A stretch of DNA of 23,240 nucleotides, taken from the IMG/VR virus record IMGVR_UViG_3300034378_000006, positions 1 through 23,240 of that record; one strand, given 5' to 3'. Positions within the stretch are counted from its first letter, which is position 1, and the number at the start of each line of letters is the position of its first letter. A model generated the notes under the pieces. It ran no database searches and was not told where the DNA came from. It saw nothing but the letters and a program-made list of their open reading frames with translations. A program made the translations under genes and the position numbers. Below are positions 12,541 to 23,240 of this stretch, piece by piece. The stretch is from a virus.

Positions 12541-13797
12541 CTACAGTAACCCGTATTTTCTATCGTATGCCTTCTTTGCCATAGCGCCCATGAAACTTCC
12601 AGCGTTATAGTCAACAACTGATTCAAAGACAAACGTTCTCCCACTTCCGTCGATCTTGCTATATGCATCGCTGATCTTATTAGGATTGAACTTGCCAATC
12701 GAGAAATGATCCTCATCTACAACTCGCTCACCATCTCTTTCCGACTTGTGTTGATAGAGCATGATGTCGGAGTCTGCTTCTGGATCAGACTTGTAAATAC
12801 CAGCATCTTGATCGTATTTCTGAGTCATATCCATGATGAATTGACGCATTTCCTCACCGTCTGTACCCTTAGGTGCAGCAATGAAGAGTGAGCGTTCGCC
12901 CACATCTGCCTTCTCGCCCTGTTCATCAGTCTCTACCCAACGACCATCCAACTCCCAAAAACCGTAACCAGCATCACGCACATCTTGCTTCAACTGGTTC
13001 ATGAGTTTCTTATTGGTTGCTTCATCGTTCTCACCACGGTAAGCGGTGACAATACCCCAAACGAAACCTTCTTTCTTTGCCATTTGCCAAACACGGGACA
13101 ACTTCTCTTCATTGAGAAATTGCTTATGCTTGCTGACAGAATAACTTACATGCTTGTCTTCAAAAAGAAGATCTCTTTCGTGTTCCTTACGACCATCTTC
13201 CACCAATCTGAATGTCTCTTGTACACACTCAGCGGTCAAAGCACCGGCAACGCTTCTAGGATCTTCTACCTCATCCGTCTTCTCACGGAGAAGTTTACCC
13301 TTATCCATTCTCCTGAGGAATTCGTTAGGAGATACGATAGTTGAATCCGACTTCACATCGTCCTTATCATAGATACGCACAACACGCAACTTCATTGCGT
13401 TGGTAAGCAAGCGAGTGAGTTGATCCTTCATACGCTTCTTGAACATATCAGAACCGTAAGGATGCTCATCCGTATCTAGAATAAAGAATTGTAGTGCTTC
13501 TAAGGCATGTTTAACAGACTTCAGTTTGCCACCATCTCCCTTGTAGAACTCAATGGAGACTTGGTTGTCGTTGGCATCACCTCTGATACGGATCATACCT
13601 TCAACAAGAGCAGCAAGACGAACTGCCGTCTCGAACCCCTTATTGGCACGACTGAACTTGTTGATGACTTTACGTGATTCAGGTGAAAGATCTAATGCTT
13701 TTTGATCTTTTGGATCTGTGATTGAATCTTCATGGCGACGAACTTCTACATATTCAAGGTTATCAGGGTTCAACCAAATCCCTGTACCCATTGGCAT
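12541..13797 (-). CDS. hypothetical phage protein (418 aa), C-terminal region resembling DUF3293-type domains
   Basis: The N-terminal half is charged and helical (residues 30-150, with LSPESRKVINKFSRANKGFE and a Lys/Arg-rich KMKDQLTRLL segment). The C-terminal half, about residues 240-400, has a recognisable arrangement: VWGIVTAYRGENDEATNKKL, then LKQDVRDAGYGFWELDGRWV, then SLFIAAPKGTDGEEMRQFIM and GRTFVFESV. This 'W-G-I-x-T-A-[YF]-R, then GY-x-x-x-x-G-x-W-x-E' layout recalls small DUF3293-like domains found in phages, but I cannot confirm it and no function follows. It starts 5 nt after the dCMP deaminase stop with an AAGGAG site, in the same operon. Confidence 0.82.
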   Translation of the reverse strand: MPMGTGIWLNPDNLEYVEVRRHEDSITDPKDQKALDLSPESRKVINKFSRANKGFETAVRLAALVEGMIRIRGDANDNQVSIEFYKGDGGKLKSVKHALEALQFFILDTDEHPYGSDMFKKRMKDQLTRLLTNAMKLRVVRIYDKDDVKSDSTIVSPNEFLRRMDKGKLLREKTDEVEDPRSVAGALTAECVQETFRLVEDGRKEHERDLLFEDKHVSYSVSKHKQFLNEEKLSRVWQMAKKEGFVWGIVTAYRGENDEATNKKLMNQLKQDVRDAGYGFWELDGRWVETDEQGEKADVGERSLFIAAPKGTDGEEMRQFIMDMTQKYDQDAGIYKSDPEADSDIMLYQHKSERDGERVVDEDHFSIGKFNPNKISDAYSKIDGSGRTFVFESVVDYNAGSFMGAMAKKAYDRKYGLL

Positions 13798-14778: not shown

Positions 14779-15381
14779 ATGTTTCAAATTCAGACAGTTG
14801 TTGAGAAGTTCGCTATTCCGCGATATGAAGGATGGGAAGAAATCCTAGAACCACTCGTTCGCAAGATCACAGGCGCACAACAGGGTAAAGTTCGAACAGG
14901 TGTAGACTATCAAAACAATGTCTTCAAGATGAAAATGCACCGCTTCGGCATATGTCATTGTTCCTATGGTAAGCAATATCGGGAGTTTGTAGAGAATAAC
15001 GGTCATGCTCTAGAGTGTTTCCATACAGCATGGCAGGAGATTCAAGACGCTTTCAAGAATCATCCTAAGTACCATGATGCACTGATACTTAAGACAGAAC
15101 GCATCAATATGGAGACTCAGTTGTGTCGCAAGTTCCGTGTACCGTATCGTGGTGGCGTATACATCGCAAACGTTTGTACTTGTGATTTTAAGCGCAAATG
15201 GGAAGCATTGGGTATTGAGCATGATGAAGATTGTGAACACGTTGCGCCGAATTTCTGGCATACGGAATCTGATTTGAAGATATGGTGGGTCAAGAAGTTC
15301 TTCAGAGAATCGTATTCCAACAAACGTGTTGACACTCAAGAGTTTAAGAGTATAATCAAAGAATGCCTCAAATCAGTTTGA
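14779..15381 (+). CDS. hypothetical Cys/His-rich phage protein (200 aa)
   Basis: I chose the ATG at 14779 because CGGGAGA precedes it by 6 nt; an in-frame ATG at 14725 has no ribosome site. The protein begins MFQIQTVVEKFAIPRYEGWE. It has scattered Cys and His (FGICHCSYGKQY; ANVCTCDFKRKWEALGI; HDEDCEHVAPNFWH), the 'CxC followed by HxxxC' pattern seen in several unclassified phage proteins, which could bind zinc. No enzyme motif is evident. It is divergent from the dCMP deaminase unit and followed after 57 nt by the repeat-protein gene on the same strand, so both may share a transcript. Confidence 0.78.
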   Translation: MFQIQTVVEKFAIPRYEGWEEILEPLVRKITGAQQGKVRTGVDYQNNVFKMKMHRFGICHCSYGKQYREFVENNGHALECFHTAWQEIQDAFKNHPKYHDALILKTERINMETQLCRKFRVPYRGGVYIANVCTCDFKRKWEALGIEHDEDCEHVAPNFWHTESDLKIWWVKKFFRESYSNKRVDTQEFKSIIKECLKSV

Positions 15382-15438: not shown

Positions 15439-16941
15439 ATGGAAGAACAAGAATTCATTGAGTATGAAGAGGACGAAATTGAAGATGTAACCTTAAAAGC
15501 AGCAGTCATGGCGCAGTTTTCACAAGCACCGTGGTACTGTAGTTCTATTGCGGTTCACACTGTTATCCTGCTTATTCTTCTACTCCTGCCTGTAGCACAC
15601 GATCAAACCAACCATCGACGCATTGTTATCACGACAGAGATAGTCGAAGAACCTATTGTAGAGGATATCGACGAACCTGATCCAGATCTTGAAACCAAAG
15701 ATCCGGAAGTTACAGATCCAGAAAACCTCAAACTCGATGAAGTGATTATCAAGACTACCGATATTCAAATCTCAGATCACTTTGAAACAGATGACGATAT
15801 GGACACGGATACCGCTCTTGGAGATCCTGATAATATCTCTGATGTTGATCATGAGTTTATAGGTACTCCTTCGCTTATGGGTGTGGGAAACAGTGGTGGT
15901 AAAGGTGGTGGAGGTCGCTTTGGTTTCCGCACTGGTGGAGGTCGTGGTGACAAGGTAAGAGAAGGTGGTGGGGATAGAGGCACCGAATCTTCTGTGAATA
16001 TGGCATTGCGTTGGTTGGCAGCACACCAAGAGTCTGATGGTCGTTGGAATTGTAAAAAGTACGGTGGTGGTTTGAAGCACGGTGATGACCACGCTGTTAC
16101 TGCTCTTGCTCTACTTGCCTTTCTCGGTGCTGGTAACTCTTCCAGATTTGGAAAATATCGCCGCAATGTTAAGGCAGCATCCGACTGGTTGATGAATGAG
16201 CAAAAGAACGGACACATTGGGACTCACAGGTATACTTCGGGTCTGACTCTTATGGCAATGGCAGAAACCTACGGCATGTCCATGGACCGTAAATACCGCA
16301 AGTCTGCACAGGCGGCAGCAGATTGGGCAGTCAAATCGCAATGTAAAACTGGTGCTTGGGATTACAAACCAAACTCTGACAGAAGCGACACATCAGTTAC
16401 AGGTTGGTGGATCATGGGGATCAAGTCGGCAAAGGTATCCGGACTCCACATTCCTTCCGAAACCTATGAGTTGGCACTAGAATACATTAAGAAAGCCACC
16501 ACAAAGGCAGGAAGTGTTTCTTATTCGTCTAATGGTGGAGCAGTAAAGGCAGGTGGTGGATCTCCACGCATGACCGCTGTAGGTCTAACTTGTCTCCAAT
16601 TCCTCGGTGTCGATAAGAAGAACGAAAGAGTTAAAGGTTGTGCTGATTCTACATCCAAGATCAATCCTCAACCCGAGAAGTTTGATTTCTATCTCTGGTA
16701 CTATCAAGCGCTCGGACTCTTCCAAATGGGCGTTAAGTCAGACTACTGGAAGAACTTCAACGAATCAATGAAAACGTCCCTACTAACCACTCAAGTCAAG
16801 GTAGGGACGGTACAACAGAACAAGGGTTCTTGGAATCCTGATACAGATAAGTACGGTCCAAGTTGGGGTCGCGTTGGTCAAACCGCAATTGGCGCACTCA
16901 TGCTAGAGATCTACTACAGATACAAAGAGGTTAAACAGTAA
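15439..16941 (+). CDS. membrane-anchored prenyltransferase/squalene-oxidase-repeat protein of PVC-bacterial type
   Basis: This 500-residue protein has an acidic N-terminus, one membrane segment at about 35-53 (SSIAVHTVILLILLLLPVAH), a Glu/Asp-rich linker with the HFETDDDMDTDTALGD segment (114-129), a Gly-rich hinge at 150-180, and an alpha/alpha-barrel-like repeat domain from about 183 (TESSVNMALRWLAAHQESDG). Repeat signatures include QESDGRWNCKKYGG, QCKTGAWDYKP, SDTSVTGWWIMGIKSAKVSG and GRVGQTAIGALMLEIYYRY. Triterpene cyclases share this fold, but their DXDD acid motif is absent, so cyclase activity is doubtful. The linker-plus-domain layout is characteristic of proteins from Planctomycetota/Lentisphaerota/Verrucomicrobiota. 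It is on the opposite strand from the structural genes and overlaps terL 3' ends by 11 nt. The ribosome site is weak. Confidence 0.82.
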   Translation: MEEQEFIEYEEDEIEDVTLKAAVMAQFSQAPWYCSSIAVHTVILLILLLLPVAHDQTNHRRIVITTEIVEEPIVEDIDEPDPDLETKDPEVTDPENLKLDEVIIKTTDIQISDHFETDDDMDTDTALGDPDNISDVDHEFIGTPSLMGVGNSGGKGGGGRFGFRTGGGRGDKVREGGGDRGTESSVNMALRWLAAHQESDGRWNCKKYGGGLKHGDDHAVTALALLAFLGAGNSSRFGKYRRNVKAASDWLMNEQKNGHIGTHRYTSGLTLMAMAETYGMSMDRKYRKSAQAAADWAVKSQCKTGAWDYKPNSDRSDTSVTGWWIMGIKSAKVSGLHIPSETYELALEYIKKATTKAGSVSYSSNGGAVKAGGGSPRMTAVGLTCLQFLGVDKKNERVKGCADSTSKINPQPEKFDFYLWYYQALGLFQMGVKSDYWKNFNESMKTSLLTTQVKVGTVQQNKGSWNPDTDKYGPSWGRVGQTAIGALMLEIYYRYKEVKQ

Positions 16942-18457
16942 ACGTCAAACAATCCTGCATGTAAACAGAAGCGACAAGGAAACATACCCAACCCGTAGAA
17001 ACAACGCAGTCATCGTAAGAACCTTCCTCCGCTTGGAATCTTCTATTTCCAGCGGAGGTTTTCTTTTCAATAAAGGTGAGGAACTCGTTGATTGTATCCG
17101 CATCCCTCACAACTAACTTACCATCTTCTGCCATCTTCTTGAGAGCATTCACCATCTTAGTCTTCGTAGCAGTGTTGGAGTTGATACCAACCGTTGGTGA
17201 GTCTGGATGATAGTAAGCATTCTCCCAATAGTATTCCTCTAGCATCTTGTCTGCAAACGACTGACCAATACCGTTGTTTTCCAAAATGAAGTAAGGTTCA
17301 CCCCATTGTGGCAATATATCAAACACATACTCCACAAAGTTAGGAATGTTGACTAAGTTGGATCTAAAGATAGCACACTGTACTAACTTGGTAATTACAG
17401 CGTCCGGAACATCTTCGGACTTCTTCTGATATTCTAGATAGTCCTGCTCGTTGGGTTCTCTCCACTCTACGCGATAGATTTGCAGTACAGAGTAGTCGTT
17501 ACCACTACCAGTTGACACATCAGCAGACGCGATATACGGTACATTCTTTTTTGGCATTTCATAGATACGATAGTATCCACCCATTGCCTTTTCTTCTTGG
17601 ATAGGTTTGATACCCTTCATGTTCTTAAGAGCAGCTGCAGAAACAACAGTGGTTTGGGAACCGATAAAGTGGTTACCATACTCAGAGTTGAACGCAATCT
17701 GCCCAATGTCGGCAATCATGTTCTCTTTCCACTCTGCCGACGAATACTCTGGAACTTCCCAATAATCCACACGCACAGGAACATACGTGTTAGTCTTATC
17801 GATAGCACCCTTCCAGATCGTGTGGAATAGGTTTCCTACACCTCTAGCGGTAGAAGTAATAACAATTTTTTCACCCTTGGATATGGTTGGAAAGTTAGCT
17901 CGATAAAACTCTCGTGCTAGGTTCTCTGGTATCAAAGCACACTCATCAATATAGAGGAATGATACAGACTCACCAGCTATAGCATCCTTGGATGTCGCTG
18001 CTGAAAAAATCTTAGATCCATTTTCAAAAGTGATTGTATGAGCATTATATTCAATAACACCTAATTTTAACCAATCAGGAAGATTTTCATATGCTGTTTT
18101 AACATCATCCAAAATGCTTTTCGCGGTCGAATCCTTATTTGCTAAAATAGCACAGCATTTATGCGGGTGAAAAATGGCATACCACACCATATAAATAGCA
18201 ATAGCAGTTGTTTTTCCAACCTGCCTAGATGCTAAGATCACAGTAGATCTATTATTGTGAACAGTATTAATAATCCTTTCTTGATAATCTCTAAAATTGA
18301 GTTTAATTCTACCTTCGGATGGATGAATTACATAACAATACTTATTGGAAAAATATATAGCATCTTGTTTACATTTATATAGTTCTTGAAGCATTTTTTC
18401 AGAAAACTCAACTTTTGCTCCCGGATCTGTTAAAAGACTATTTTTTTTCTTTGCCAT
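16931..18457 (-). CDS. terL: terminase large subunit (gp17-like)
   Basis: This is the DNA-packaging motor and headful nuclease. I start at ATG 18457 (MAKKKNSLLT), which has GTGTGGAG 5-9 nt before it; an in-frame ATG 30 nt upstream lacks this. That gives 508 residues against 610 for T4 gp17. ATPase motifs: Walker A SRQVGKTT at 78-85, Walker B SFLYIDE at 166-172, coupling motif TSTAR at 201-205. Nuclease acidic residues: SADVS (D313), ILENNG (E393) and YDDC (D482/D483). The first 20 nt overlap the end of the homing endonuclease gene. GC falls to about 28-30% for the first 150 codons and returns to about 44% afterwards, unlike a single-origin gene. The 3' end overlaps the convergent repeat-protein gene by 11 nt. 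Confidence 0.95.
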   Translation of the reverse strand: MAKKKNSLLTDPGAKVEFSEKMLQELYKCKQDAIYFSNKYCYVIHPSEGRIKLNFRDYQERIINTVHNNRSTVILASRQVGKTTAIAIYMVWYAIFHPHKCCAILANKDSTAKSILDDVKTAYENLPDWLKLGVIEYNAHTITFENGSKIFSAATSKDAIAGESVSFLYIDECALIPENLAREFYRANFPTISKGEKIVITSTARGVGNLFHTIWKGAIDKTNTYVPVRVDYWEVPEYSSAEWKENMIADIGQIAFNSEYGNHFIGSQTTVVSAAALKNMKGIKPIQEEKAMGGYYRIYEMPKKNVPYIASADVSTGSGNDYSVLQIYRVEWREPNEQDYLEYQKKSEDVPDAVITKLVQCAIFRSNLVNIPNFVEYVFDILPQWGEPYFILENNGIGQSFADKMLEEYYWENAYYHPDSPTVGINSNTATKTKMVNALKKMAEDGKLVVRDADTINEFLTFIEKKTSAGNRRFQAEEGSYDDCVVSTGWVCFLVASVYMQDCLTFTV

Positions 18458-19988
18458 TTTTACTCCACACAAAAACTTTATTTCCACAATTGTATATCTT
18501 TTGGTATTTATGTTTTCTCATCTGTTCATCTTCTGTTAAAGAAGATTCTTTCAACTCCGATTTCCGAAATTTGAATCTATTAAACCTTTGATTTCCATAG
18601 CACCAATAATAATTAGGCGTTGTTTCTTTATGTAATTCAAACCCATTCGCTAAATACACATCCCCGGTAAATAATCGTTTATCACAATATGATATGGTAG
18701 ATTGAATAGAAAGGTGTTCGACAGCATATTTCCATAGTTTACTAAATCCACCTATTACCTTCATATTTGCCATATTACAAAATCTTAACAATTCATAATC
18801 ATATATTTTATTTTTGAATCTTGGAGATCCAAGAGTAATACAAGATACTAATTGATCATTATGATACAAACCAAAAGCGTATTTGGATGGAATATACCCT
18901 TGAATATGATTGTTATCTAAAAATGACTTCTCTTCAGAATATGATACTGGTCTGACAATTGTCTTACGACCATATATTCGAGACACATCCACATTCAAAA
19001 AACAGTTAATAAGAGATTTTACCAAATGTGATTTTTCAATCCATTCGTCTTCATAAATCTGTATTAATCGTATACCTTCTTTGGCGAAATATTCCGTTTT
19101 GTTTTTGTGATAATCAGCGGATTTAAACAGATCTGAATGGTAATATAATCCATTCATTTCAACCCCAAATTTCTTCTCTGGAACATAAATATCAATTTCA
19201 TTTTTTTCTTTAACAAATCTAGAAACAACTGTTTGGTTTAAAGTTGTTTCAACATACTCTTTCAGTTGACGCTCCATTGAAGATGTCTTTAAGTCTTTTG
19301 GTAGACATTGATAACAGATTTCCATATTATGATCTAAACGATACTCCAATGGTTTTCGATTAAAAACACTTATCGAATTACATTTTGGACATTGAATATG
19401 GAATAAAGATTGATACTTAAAAGTTTTTTGAACCAGCGTGTATCCTTCTGGAAGTCTTTGTTGTATTTGCCAGCATATTCGTTTTTGTTTAGATTCTTTA
19501 GTTTTCTGATAGATGTCTGAATTTTGTAGAGGAAAATCACAGTTGTATTTTTTTTGATTTCGTATCCGAGTCTTAGCATGAAATGTTTCCATGTAATCTT
19601 CACCATAACGAGATATCATTGTAGAAATTTGTTTCGATGAGTTATTATAATTCTCATCGCCATACTTCTCTTTTTTTATATTCTTAACATGCTCAACAAA
19701 TCCATTCATTGATCCATATTTTTTATTGATTGTTTGTTGTCTTTTAATAATATGTGTCTTATCTTGATAGTAGCAAGATCTAGAACAAAAATCACTATAT
19801 CCTCTTTTGAGTCCCTGAAACTTAGTAGGTTTTCCACAATTTACACAAACACCCTCGTTCTCTTTTCTCAGCACTTGATCATAAAAATCTTTAGATTTTT
19901 TGATTCCGTGATGCGACCGAACATGAAGTAAGAATAGTTGGCTTATATTAGAACATTCAATATCTTGATTACATATGGGACAATTCAT
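18438..19988 (-). CDS. free-standing homing endonuclease, EDxHD (Vsr-like) family
   Basis: This 516-residue protein is a probable DNA endonuclease that promotes its own spread. Residues 1-75 carry Cys/His pairs (CPIC with HVRSHH; VCVNC with CSRSC) and 200-228 another (CPKC, CYQC). Residues 86-155 hold repeated KYG modules (KKYGSMNGF, EKYGDENYN, SRYGEDYM, KKYNCDF) typical of DNA-binding regions in this group. The catalytic core is at 264-317: EIDIYVPEKKFGVEMNGLYY, HSD, HKNK, and QIYEDEW, the Vsr-like EDxHD pattern of I-Bth0305I-type enzymes. A C-terminal domain (345-475) has VRPVSYSEEKSFLDNNHIQG and GFSKLWKYAVE, common in phage homing proteins. GC is about 30%, well below its neighbours. It overlaps terL by 20 nt and has an AAAGGAGAAAT ribosome site. 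Confidence 0.85.
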   Translation of the reverse strand: MNCPICNQDIECSNISQLFLLHVRSHHGIKKSKDFYDQVLRKENEGVCVNCGKPTKFQGLKRGYSDFCSRSCYYQDKTHIIKRQQTINKKYGSMNGFVEHVKNIKKEKYGDENYNNSSKQISTMISRYGEDYMETFHAKTRIRNQKKYNCDFPLQNSDIYQKTKESKQKRICWQIQQRLPEGYTLVQKTFKYQSLFHIQCPKCNSISVFNRKPLEYRLDHNMEICYQCLPKDLKTSSMERQLKEYVETTLNQTVVSRFVKEKNEIDIYVPEKKFGVEMNGLYYHSDLFKSADYHKNKTEYFAKEGIRLIQIYEDEWIEKSHLVKSLINCFLNVDVSRIYGRKTIVRPVSYSEEKSFLDNNHIQGYIPSKYAFGLYHNDQLVSCITLGSPRFKNKIYDYELLRFCNMANMKVIGGFSKLWKYAVEHLSIQSTISYCDKRLFTGDVYLANGFELHKETTPNYYWCYGNQRFNRFKFRKSELKESSLTEDEQMRKHKYQKIYNCGNKVFVWSKNGKEKK

Positions 19989-20806: not shown

Positions 20807-21547
20807 TTATCTTCTAAAACGTGCCCGACGAGTAATTTGACGGATCAGATCACTTTGATCATGTTCGCGTAGAGGTTTCTTGATATACTCATCGAGCATG
20901 TCGTGTGGCATCTCGGAGATCGCCTCTACAAGTTCCTCAAGAACAAAATTCGTATCCTTGTTCTCTCCCAACAAGTTTTTCTTACGGTGTTCGACGTAGA
21001 TGTAGTATCCAGCAGCAACAAGACCGACACCAATAACAATCAGGACTACCCATGGATATTGGTTGATCATGATACCACAAGCGATTAGAGAAGCACCCCC
21101 GGCAGAGATACCCATACCTAACCACCACATTCCAAAGAACATTAGAACTACACCAACAGCAACCATGATGCCACCAAAGACAAACAGTTGTACTGGTGCC
21201 GAATTTAGTTTCCAAGAAGAAGACATCTCAGTGAAAGAGTCAAGGGATGAGCGACCATCTGCCGAAAGACGGAACTTACCCTTAGAACCTACAGGAAGTT
21301 CTGCATCTACACCGTCAATTCGAATCTTTTGGTTGGGTAGAGGTCCACCGTTTTCATCCAGAACAGGAACATCTGGAAGTTCAATCTCACCCTCAATAGA
21401 TCCGATTACACGCTCTTTGACGTTATCTGTTTGTGATGCGTTGCCTTGATTACCTTGGGGAATACGGTTCTTAGGTGAACCCCATCTACCATTGCAACCT
21501 GTCAGCAAACACACCAGCAATAGAACTATGAATGTCTTCTTAAGCAT
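20807..21547 (-). CDS. putative lipoprotein with three membrane segments (246 aa)
   Basis: I start at ATG 21547 (MLKKTFIVLLLVCLLTGCNG), which has GAGGTGATT before it. This gives a clear lipoprotein signal with lipobox LLTGC (Cys18), typical of Gram-negative-type lipoprotein processing. After a polar domain (20-118) come three hydrophobic segments at about 120-140, 141-162 and 165-184, then a charged C-terminal tail with a helical segment (FVLEELVEAISEMPHDMLDE) and a basic end (RRARFRR). A lipoprotein that also spans the membrane three times is unusual. Possible roles are host-envelope modification, superinfection exclusion or lysis, but nothing specific identifies one. It is followed by a terminator, so it ends its own transcript. 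Confidence 0.75.
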   Translation of the reverse strand: MLKKTFIVLLLVCLLTGCNGRWGSPKNRIPQGNQGNASQTDNVKERVIGSIEGEIELPDVPVLDENGGPLPNQKIRIDGVDAELPVGSKGKFRLSADGRSSLDSFTEMSSSWKLNSAPVQLFVFGGIMVAVGVVLMFFGMWWLGMGISAGGASLIACGIMINQYPWVVLIVIGVGLVAAGYYIYVEHRKKNLLGENKDTNFVLEELVEAISEMPHDMLDEYIKKPLREHDQSDLIRQITRRARFRR

Positions 21548-21563
21548 AATAATCACCTCTATC

Positions 21564-21571
21564 CTATTTAG
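21564..21571 (-). promoter_or_regulatory. candidate late promoter motif CTAAATAG before the lipoprotein gene
   Basis: The minus strand reads ACTAAATAGGATAGAGGTG; the octamer ends 16 nt before the ATG. It repeats the motif and spacing seen before the endonuclease gene. It is in non-coding DNA between the LamG fragment and the lipoprotein gene. Confidence 0.4.
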
Positions 21572-21589
21572 TATCAATATGCTGCGATT

Positions 21590-21913
21590 TTACATATAAT
21601 CTCGGTAAGGTGCAGTTGGTGGAGTAAATGCTGCTGTCCAACGTGCAACTCCCTTTGTAACTCTAAATTCGTCAAAGTATCCTCTCACATATTGCGGAGT
21701 GAAGAAGTCTGTACCAATATATAGAGGACCATCGTGTGAGAATGTTATACTATTCGTGGCAGTAGCGATAACCGAACCATTGCGGAATGCATACCACGAA
21801 TTTCCAATACGAGTTACAGCGACATGATACCAAGTATCAACGCTCCATCCAGAAAGACTATTCTGATCCAAGATCTCTGTAGCACTACCACCTGTACGGT
21901 TTGTGAACGTCAA
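21590..21913 (-). CDS. LamG-like (concanavalin-type) C-terminal fragment of a tail fibre or virion surface protein, probably 5'-truncated
   Basis: The translated part has the end of a LamG jelly-roll domain: SGWSVDTWYHVAVTRIGNSW, FRNGSVIATA, PLYIGTDFF, GYFDEFRVTKGVARWTAAFT and the PPTAPYRDYM end common in phage virion proteins with carbohydrate-binding folds. There is no ATG at the start of the domain, only a TTG at 21913. The frame stays open upstream to a TGA at 21991-21989, reading ANRQIGIQRHDSTGLTFTN, which looks like genuine LamG sequence up to about 21955, after which the GC-rich neighbouring sequence begins and the frame becomes Cys/Gly-rich nonsense. The fragment is therefore likely the tail end of a longer gene cut at the junction. 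It may be a pseudogene or an assembly artefact. Confidence 0.6.
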   Translation of the reverse strand: MTFTNRTGGSATEILDQNSLSGWSVDTWYHVAVTRIGNSWYAFRNGSVIATATNSITFSHDGPLYIGTDFFTPQYVRGYFDEFRVTKGVARWTAAFTPPTAPYRDYM

Positions 21914-22281
21914 TCCAGTGCTATCGTGTCTCTGGATTCCAATTTGACGATTCGCGCATACAACCTGGCCGCAGCCGCAGCGTCCGCATCAGATACGGCC
22001 AGCGCCTTTGCCCGTTCCAGCAGCGCCAGCTCGCGCTCCTGCTCTGCCGCAGCCAGATACTCCACCGCCTTACGCTCCGCAGATGCCTCGGCCTCGGTCA
22101 TAAGCGACTCCGGGTTGTTGCCGAGGTCAAGCCATGCCTGCACCGCGTCAGTGTACTTTGACAGCCGACCACCCCGAACCTTCGGCGGAATGGGATAGGG
22201 GAACGCGCACTCGCGCCCATCGTCAAAAGTGCAGTGCAGCGTCTTGCCGTCCATGCTCGTCTTCGCTTCTGTAAGTTTCAT
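21910..22281 (-). CDS. hypothetical phage protein (123 aa), 3' end crossing the junction
   Basis: The protein begins MKLTEAKTSMDGKTLHCTFD and contains ECAFPYPIPPKVRGGRLSKY, a small beta region with a Tyr/Pro loop, then an Ala/Glu-rich helix (ASAERKAVEYLAAAEQEREL) likely to be a coiled coil. I do not recognise the family; such proteins occur near tail-fibre genes of many phages. Its start overlaps the stop of the 214-residue gene by 4 nt (ATGA), so the two are coupled. The last roughly 15 residues (KLESRDTIALD) come from the lower-GC sequence that in another frame encodes the LamG domain, so the natural C-terminus has probably been replaced. Confidence 0.68.
   Translation of the reverse strand: MKLTEAKTSMDGKTLHCTFDDGRECAFPYPIPPKVRGGRLSKYTDAVQAWLDLGNNPESLMTEAEASAERKAVEYLAAAEQERELALLERAKALAVSDADAAAAARLYARIVKLESRDTIALD
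21935..21965. other. composition junction between phage backbone and GC-rich segment
   Basis: The 60 bases before 21960 are about 47% GC, the 60 after are about 68%, and the difference holds on each side (about 42% against over 60%). The LamG frame and the 123-residue gene both run across the site in different frames. I see no integrase, att repeat or inverted repeat at the site. Confidence 0.7.
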
Positions 22282-22922
22282 TTCACGGTCTCCTTCTCTA
22301 TCTGTTTGATTTCGTCGGGACTCGGCAACGCCTGCTCGTGCCGCCCGTATTCCGATTGTTCCAGCATCTCAATCAACTTCCGGTCATCCTTGATGATCGC
22401 CGCCCACTCCTCGCGCTCTGCAATAGGCAGCGAGCACAAATTCTTCAGCGTCACCTCGTCCACGCGCCCCGTCGTCAGCTTGGATAGGGCGGCGCGTTTC
22501 AGGTGCCACCAGCGCCACTCCTGGCGATCCAGCTCGATACGGCGTTCCTCGGTGATCTCCCCCAGTTCGGCCTTGAGGTCACTCGCCACTCGTAAAAACA
22601 GCGCGGCCTCCCGCGTCGTGTCGCGGATGCCGCGTTCGGCCTCTTCGAGATGACCATGCGCGGCGCGGAGTTCGATAGTCGCCCGGCGGGCGTCCCGTCC
22701 ATCCTCGCCATCAACACGGTCCTGCAAATCCTCCATGTTGATCAGGAGCAAGTCGCGGTCGGTAATCATCTGGCGCAGACCCCGAGCGCGCTTGTACAAT
22801 TCTCGCAGTGCCTGCTTGTATGTTCCCCATGGCGTGCGGCCTCCCAGCACGAAGGACCCTAGCTGAGTGGCATCCTGCCCGGTACGATGGTCAAGCAGTA
22901 AGTCGTGTAAGTCGTTTAGCAT
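22278..22922 (-). CDS. hypothetical coiled-coil phage protein (214 aa)
   Basis: I do not recognise this protein. It is almost wholly helical and highly charged: MLNDLHDLLLDHRTGQDATQ, then ALRELYKRARGLRQM, a long heptad-like region (ATIELRAAHGHLEEAERGIR onward), and a C-terminal KEWAAIIKDD-like segment. It follows the Kelch-repeat gene by 15 nt with a strong GGAGAGGAG ribosome site and overlaps the next gene by 4 nt, forming a three-gene run. Codon use is strongly GC-biased, unlike the genes left of 21.95 kb. A structural or assembly role near a fibre is possible from context only. Confidence 0.72.
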   Translation of the reverse strand: MLNDLHDLLLDHRTGQDATQLGSFVLGGRTPWGTYKQALRELYKRARGLRQMITDRDLLLINMEDLQDRVDGEDGRDARRATIELRAAHGHLEEAERGIRDTTREAALFLRVASDLKAELGEITEERRIELDRQEWRWWHLKRAALSKLTTGRVDEVTLKNLCSLPIAEREEWAAIIKDDRKLIEMLEQSEYGRHEQALPSPDEIKQIEKETVK

Positions 22923-22937
22923 GTTATGTCTCCTCTC

Positions 22938-23240
22938 CTAAATAGTCGATGCGGCGAGATTACGCCGACCCGGCGTCGGCATATCGGTCTCGTTCGCCCA
23001 ACTGGTCCCGTCCCATGAATCGCAATCTTGTAATTCGATGCCGTCGTCCCCTCCGTAGACGTAGCCGGTGGAGCCGATCGTCGATGCGGCGAGGTAATTT
23101 CTCGCCGGCGTCAGCATATCGGCCTTGCTCGCCCAACTACTCTCGTCCCACGAGTCGCAATCTCGCAAGAGGCCGTGGCCGTTCCACCCGCCATAGACGT
23201 AGCCAGTACCGCCAATCGTCGATGCGGCGAAGTGTCCCCG
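22938..23240 (-). CDS. Kelch-repeat protein, C-terminal part (partial, runs off the right edge)
   Basis: The frame is open from base 23240 to TAG at 22940-22938. It shows two complete Kelch-type blades and parts of others: AASTIGGTGYVYGGWNGHGL, CDSWDESSWASKADM, TPARNYLAASTIGSTGYVYG, CDSWDGTSWANETDMPTPGR. The 'GG' and 'W' residues of Kelch blades are present, and the unit is 45-46 residues. Such beta-propellers occur in phage tail fibres and host-attachment proteins. The protein ends abruptly with AASTI at the point where the next blade would begin. The start lies outside the window. Confidence 0.72.
   Translation of the reverse strand, partial: RGHFAASTIGGTGYVYGGWNGHGLLRDCDSWDESSWASKADMLTPARNYLAASTIGSTGYVYGGDDGIELQDCDSWDGTSWANETDMPTPGRRNLAASTI
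22945..23223. repeat. tandem 135-138-bp coding repeats of the Kelch gene
   Basis: The hexamer-plus GTCGATGCGGCG recurs at 22945, 23080 and 23218, spaced 135 and 138 bases, with strong similarity between units. The similarity in DNA as well as protein suggests recent tandem expansion. Confidence 0.8.

Follow-up and report, generated by a model that had tools for sequence, protein, structure and literature searches.

A T4-like phage gene of planctomycete origin encodes a putative TonB/TolA-type force transducer with a squalene-cyclase-like head

The closest described systems to the one considered here are the TonB/TolA proteins and a class of bacterial force transducers that was reported in 2025. 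For TonB, cryo-EM places Ser16 and His20 in contact with ExbB, and the D-box (ISVTMVT, residues 45-51) binds ExbD (PMC12215075). The second class, described from PVC and other bacteria, joins an SHLS-type helix and a disordered linker to a von Willebrand A (vWA) head, has a TolQ/TolR-like motor link in its PVC group, and came with the expectation that more such transducers would be found (PMC12204202).

Like TonB/TolA, the protein analyzed here combines a single N-terminal transmembrane (TM) helix containing an SxxxH motif, a candidate short extended strand after it, a disordered charged linker and a globular, predicted periplasmic C-terminal domain, and it belongs to a bacterial family of which a part is encoded together with ExbB and ExbD. 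Unlike TonB/TolA, it has a toroid as its head, a Pro in place of the last Ser of SHLS and an acidic, Gly-rich linker, is carried by a phage without the motor, and shows no TonB sequence match. It shares the SHLS-type helix, the disordered linker and a non-TonB head with the vWA transducers, whereas the head is a vWA domain there and a toroid here, and that class is known from bacteria, not phages (PMC12204202). The toroid family fits the published description of these proteins with another head, and a literature search found no paper reporting a toroid-headed transducer family.

The DNA under study (the window) is the complete IMG/VR record IMGVR_UViG_3300034378_000006, 23,240 bases in length. 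The gene of interest, here called the cargo gene, is an open reading frame (ORF) of 500 codons for amino acids that begins with ATG and lies exactly at 15439-16941 on the plus strand; the ORF itself, its homologs, an AF2 model and a tree together point to an inner-membrane-anchored protein with a TonB/TolA-type anchor, an acidic/Gly linker and an alpha/alpha toroid. On the minus strand around it are T4-type genes for terminase, sheath, tube and baseplate proteins (PHROGs), and the terminase is ~34% identical to gp17 of phage RB49, in agreement with the T4-like context proposed in a preliminary description of this locus. The domain order given in that description (anchor, acidic linker with HFETDDDMDTDTA, Gly hinge and alpha repeats) is also present in full, and the role at the host envelope that it suggested fits a periplasmic protein anchored by an SxxxH helix.

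From sequence comparisons and structural modelling, we consider the chances about even that this protein is a periplasmic force transducer with TonB/TolA topology and a new head, which a T4-like phage lineage took from a planctomycete host. In such a system, the N-terminal helix would dock via Ser36 and His40 on a proton-driven host motor of the ExbB/ExbD (TolQ/TolR) type, the acidic/Gly linker would cross the periplasm, and the squalene-cyclase-like toroid would grip a periplasmic or outer-membrane partner of the host. The phage would supply the transducer alone and depend on host motors, and the most likely role of the protein during infection would be that of a functional substitute, by which an envelope function driven by the motor is maintained or redirected while synthesis by the host is shut off. 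Motor binding, coupling to the proton motive force, the partner and the role in infection are features that we infer.

The anchor carries the main resemblance to TonB. The AF2 model contains a single TM helix at residues 32-49 (15532-15585, plus strand), which is hydrophobic in sequence, and the motor-binding motif of the TonB/TolA type, S36-x3-H40 (15544-15558, plus strand), lies near its start. SxxxH is found at this position in 63 of the 68 full-length family members and in none of 120 background ORFs (other ORFs from the same loci with an N-terminal TM-like segment), and it is invariant in alignments of the phage and close planctomycete copies. As for the remainder of SHLS, L47 of the window protein occupies the Leu position (+7 from His) and P51 stands where TonB has Ser (+11). 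By sequence resemblance only, IVITTEI (residues 62-68; 15622-15642, plus strand) is a candidate D-box-like strand; it starts 22 residues after His40, compared with 25 residues between His20 and the ISVTMVT of TonB, and the AF2 model of the protein alone has no strand there. When the N-terminal region was searched as a profile against the PDB, no TonB or TolA chain was matched; this result and the replacement of Ser by P51 limit the tie of the anchor to TonB to motif and topology.

Between anchor and head, the AF2 model has low confidence (residues ~74-158), and this part includes the linker motif HFETDDDMDTDTA (residues 114-126; 15778-15816, plus strand) of the disordered acidic linker. The motif is common to planctomycete homologs, with the counterparts NFETDDNMDDATALG in L120 and METEDDMDLDMAHG in L005, and is followed by a Gly-rich hinge with conserved Gly columns (residues 147-179; 15877-15975, plus strand). 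Structure prediction, which the preliminary description had proposed as a check, gave a confident toroid over residues 169-500 (15943-16938, plus strand; pLDDT mostly >92), and the alpha/alpha toroid was obtained with both AF2 and VIA. Its best fold match is squalene-hopene cyclase (2sqc; Z 26.7, 281 residues aligned, 18% identity), the same family is matched by profile in the PDB (E 1e-16), QW-type motifs occur at Q197, Q301 and Q452, and further fold matches are to terpene cyclases, epimerases and GH76. With Pfam and NCBIfam, the window protein matched squalene-hopene cyclase and pectate lyase only below cut-off; it gave no TonB_C match, and the toroid takes the place of a TonB/TolA C-terminal domain.

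The toroid is like squalene-hopene and terpenoid cyclases (PF13243) in its fold and QW-type repeats, but it has about half the length of the bacterial squalene-hopene cyclase, stands behind a membrane anchor, scores below the Pfam cut-off and lacks DXDD. The absence of this motif had been remarked on before and extends across the family: D.DD[TS] occurs in none of the 89 aligned members, and the D-R-S-D of the window protein (residues 314-317; 16378-16389, plus strand) is its likely counterpart. Squalene cyclase activity was rejected because DXDD is missing. D317, S319 and W323 are invariant across the 89 members, and the phage copy retains all 18 family-invariant residues. An alpha/alpha toroid is also found in the TED domain of bacterial alpha-2-macroglobulin, a gene for which immediately precedes that of the L004 homolog; identity with this protein was rejected because the window protein lacks its domains, and it also lacks the CGEQ thioester sequence.

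In bacteria, a scan of 84,980 species genomes yielded 114 relatives, and the best 80 of these were nearly all from Planctomycetota, with some from Verrucomicrobiota and Lentisphaerae and a few labelled only 'bacterium'; the scan was seeded by a pattern based in part on a consensus sequence, so these distribution counts are not exhaustive. A two-row seed alignment with this consensus served only for choosing patterns, and all matches were confirmed by tblastn with the window protein. Together with 58% identity over the full length (511 columns) to a chromosomal planctomycete protein (L090; 44% to L004), this result bears out the assignment to a PVC membrane-protein family that had been made from the sequence alone, and the matches are to PVC genomes rather than only to phages or unrelated phyla. 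Several genomes of Planctomycetota and related bacteria (G008, which is the genome of L006, G006, G010 and G011) contain many matches to the family, as many as 23 in a single genome, and we know of no phenotype for any of its members.

The neighbors of the bacterial genes bear on motor coupling in both directions. Genes for ExbB and ExbD lie co-oriented upstream in 16 of the 80 loci (confirmed with Pfam on representatives), and a SurA/PPIC gene is upstream in 24. At six of the 16 ExbBD-linked loci (L019, L035, L049, L050, L054 and L062) the toroid protein has SxxxH, and in L019, L049 and L050 it is in addition fused to TolB-like PD40 propeller repeats. Counted against motor coupling are nine of the 16 loci, where the protein has a different N-terminus without SxxxH, the fact that most SxxxH members do not adjoin ExbBD genes, and the 24 loci that follow a SurA/PPIC gene instead. 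The two genomes nearest to the phage copies encode 6 and 7 ExbD proteins and 2 TonB_C proteins each, and therefore contain more motors than classical transducers.

The separation of most SxxxH members from motor genes would also suit a membrane-tethered binding protein or enzyme, in which the toroid binds lipid, glycan or protein, the anchor is simply a tether and SxxxH is otherwise used. The best folds (squalene-hopene cyclase, terpene cyclases, epimerases and GH76) and the invariant Asp, Tyr and Trp positions are consistent with such a protein, yet this proposal leaves the SxxxH of 63 of the 68 members, the D-box-like strand and the exbB-exbD operons unexplained, and its cyclase version conflicts with the lack of DXDD in all 89 proteins; we regard it as somewhat unlikely. 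The TonB/TolA-type anchor, which the preliminary description had missed, shifts its reading of a binding or structural protein to that of a probable motor-coupled transducer.

The cargo gene also has viral relatives. Viral scans identified four further T4-like contigs that carry it, with 65% identity in L003 and 53-54% in L002, L086 and L087, the last on a contig of 191,782 bp. In all five, a small Cys/His-rich gene is followed by the cargo gene and then by the convergent terminase gene, with an additional HNH-like ORF (by eye) within this arrangement in L086. In the window, the conserved small gene (200 amino acids; 14779-15381, plus strand) is directly upstream of the cargo gene, and the 3' end of the gene for the terminase large subunit (16931-18487, minus strand) shares 11 bp with the cargo stop. 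The small gene product had no family match, and its structure model was useless (pLDDT 47). A perfect sigma70-like promoter (TTGACA-16-TATAAT; 15329-15356, plus strand) lies within the 3' end of the small gene; it was given no weight because it is not conserved in the other cargo-bearing phages. The idea of a CTAAATA late promoter was dropped, as matches were no better than chance.

In L126, a sister phage from the same metagenome as L003, the stop of the small gene abuts the terminase gene and no cargo gene is present on the 35 kb contig. Therefore, the cargo gene is an accessory insertion, and its site is between the stops of the small gene and the terminase gene. Among the phage copies, dN is 0.18-0.40 and lowest in the toroid (for the L002-L087 pair, 0.125 in the toroid and 0.415 at the N-terminus), with synonymous sites at or near saturation, and the copies have diverged about as much as their terminases. 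The phage copies are under purifying selection, and the retention of the gene by five T4-like contigs, with non-synonymous change low and synonymous change saturated, indicates that its presence is not due to chance.

A sixth viral copy, L088 (33% identity), belongs to a viral contig that is unrelated to these five and encodes ClpB-like, dUTPase and ribonucleotide reductase proteins; an ORF on the same contig (L088:12982-14439) resembles, by eye, a TROVE/Ro-type RNA-binding protein. The statement that T4-type phages were not known to carry this family fits the result that tblastn of the cargo protein found nothing in 50,697 phage records (INPHARED). In addition, the protein had no match in 72,556 plasmid records, no PHROG match and no BFVD match at E<=1e-3, the use of the 89-row alignment in a viral scan brought no further members, and a single-sequence scan with the cargo protein detected no relatives. 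For these large T4-like viruses, no close relative was found among deposited phages.

Phylogenetic analysis places the five T4-like copies in a single clade (100/100) together with six genes from two Planctomycetota genomes that belong to one class, and the window protein is nearer to L090 (58%) than to the phage copies L002, L086 and L087 (53-54%). The bacterial copies adjoin topA or metabolic genes and are therefore chromosomal. These comparisons show that the cargo gene derives from planctomycete chromosomal genes, and the nested tree implies a planctomycete host. The earlier hint at the host phylum is strengthened to this extent, and a CRISPR search added no spacer link, as the best short DNA matches (in one planctomycete class) were outside CRISPR-like repeat arrays. 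An AU test left the choice between one capture and more undecided for the five T4-like copies (monophyly, p 0.13), and the joining of L088 with these five was weakly rejected (p 0.03, with the caveat of a long branch), so that the L088 copy is probably a separate acquisition.

Since the nearest relatives include bacterial chromosomal genes, the cargo gene might also be a fragment of host DNA, present through assembly error or transduction, and not a phage gene. Its location is identical in five contigs, one of them of 192 kb, a conserved synteny that refutes this idea; furthermore, its GC3 of 0.406 is like that of the phage and unlike that of the bacterial copy (0.669), from which we conclude that the gene has long been resident in phages, and the copies have diverged like terminases under purifying selection. 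We consider a host fragment extremely improbable.

Neither ExbD nor an ExbB above cut-off was found in the viral records, including the one of 192 kb. With both ends of the protein kept and motor genes missing, a working transducer on host motors is the simplest reading, and it suggests that the virus plugs a part of its own into the host envelope machinery. The same features, SxxxH without motor genes in the phage, could belong to a decoy that occupies ExbBD-type motors of the host or a partner in the outer membrane and thereby prevents rival phages from entering by TonB/Tol-dependent routes (superinfection exclusion) or blocks a host defence. Other phages interfere with the Ton system, and the presence or absence of this accessory gene between sister phages is moron-like. 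A pure motor decoy needs no toroid, yet the toroid has kept its 18 invariant residues and is the best-conserved part, for which reason a decoy is less likely than a working transducer; a decoy that grips a partner may be compatible with this conservation. Overall, we judge a decoy unlikely.

A further alternative is an accessory for lysis or envelope disruption late in the cycle. The gene sits beside terminase and late tail genes, and a lipoprotein or multi-TM protein is conserved nearby, but the cargo gene is on the strand opposite to that of the late genes, its product shows no features of a hydrolase or spanin, and a sister phage lacks it; we consider such a role very unlikely. The nearby protein (20807-21577, minus strand) combines a lipoprotein-type signal with several TM segments, is conserved beside the terminase genes of L002, L003, L087 and L126, and has no PHROG or Pfam match over cut-off.

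If the protein is a motor-coupled transducer, proton-motor-driven envelope systems would gain a second type of non-TonB head in addition to that of the vWA class of 2025, a large and still unnamed planctomycete family would acquire a testable role, and a virus would be seen to hijack a trans-envelope motor by supplying the transducer only. A broader proposal, which we rate as slightly less likely than not, is that PVC bacteria possess a whole class of proton-motor-driven transducers with squalene-cyclase-like heads and many paralogs, that lytic T4-like phages capture one of them to run or hijack the host motor, and that this is the first phage-encoded force transducer of the TonB/TolA type. 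The system also gives phage-based access to the envelope of planctomycetes, which is poorly understood, and provides a clue to the host of this lineage of large viruses.

The surroundings of the terminase gene contain other elements. A homing-endonuclease ORF with a GC content of ~0.30 (18438-19988, minus strand; phrog_3339, E 2e-96) overlaps the start of the window terminase, and the terminase gene of L126 (L126:3776-6304, minus strand) has an in-frame, intein-like insertion of ~330 amino acids exactly at Walker A (QCGK-ALSLD...HNTT). With the HNH-like ORF of L086, they give this region the appearance of a hot spot of selfish elements, which may have served the cargo gene as a vehicle.

Elsewhere, the product of 12541-13797 (minus strand) has a C-terminal S-adenosylmethionine lyase domain (PF23780, E 3.7e-9) and is possibly an anti-restriction enzyme. 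The large T4-like phage G004 (191,782 bp, L106-L115) encodes 29 tRNAs as well as proteins with Ser-rich repeats. At the end of the window, GC rises from ~0.43 to 0.5-0.6 over 21500-23240, where a kelch-like repeat fragment reaches the contig end, and this segment is probably a recently acquired fibre region.
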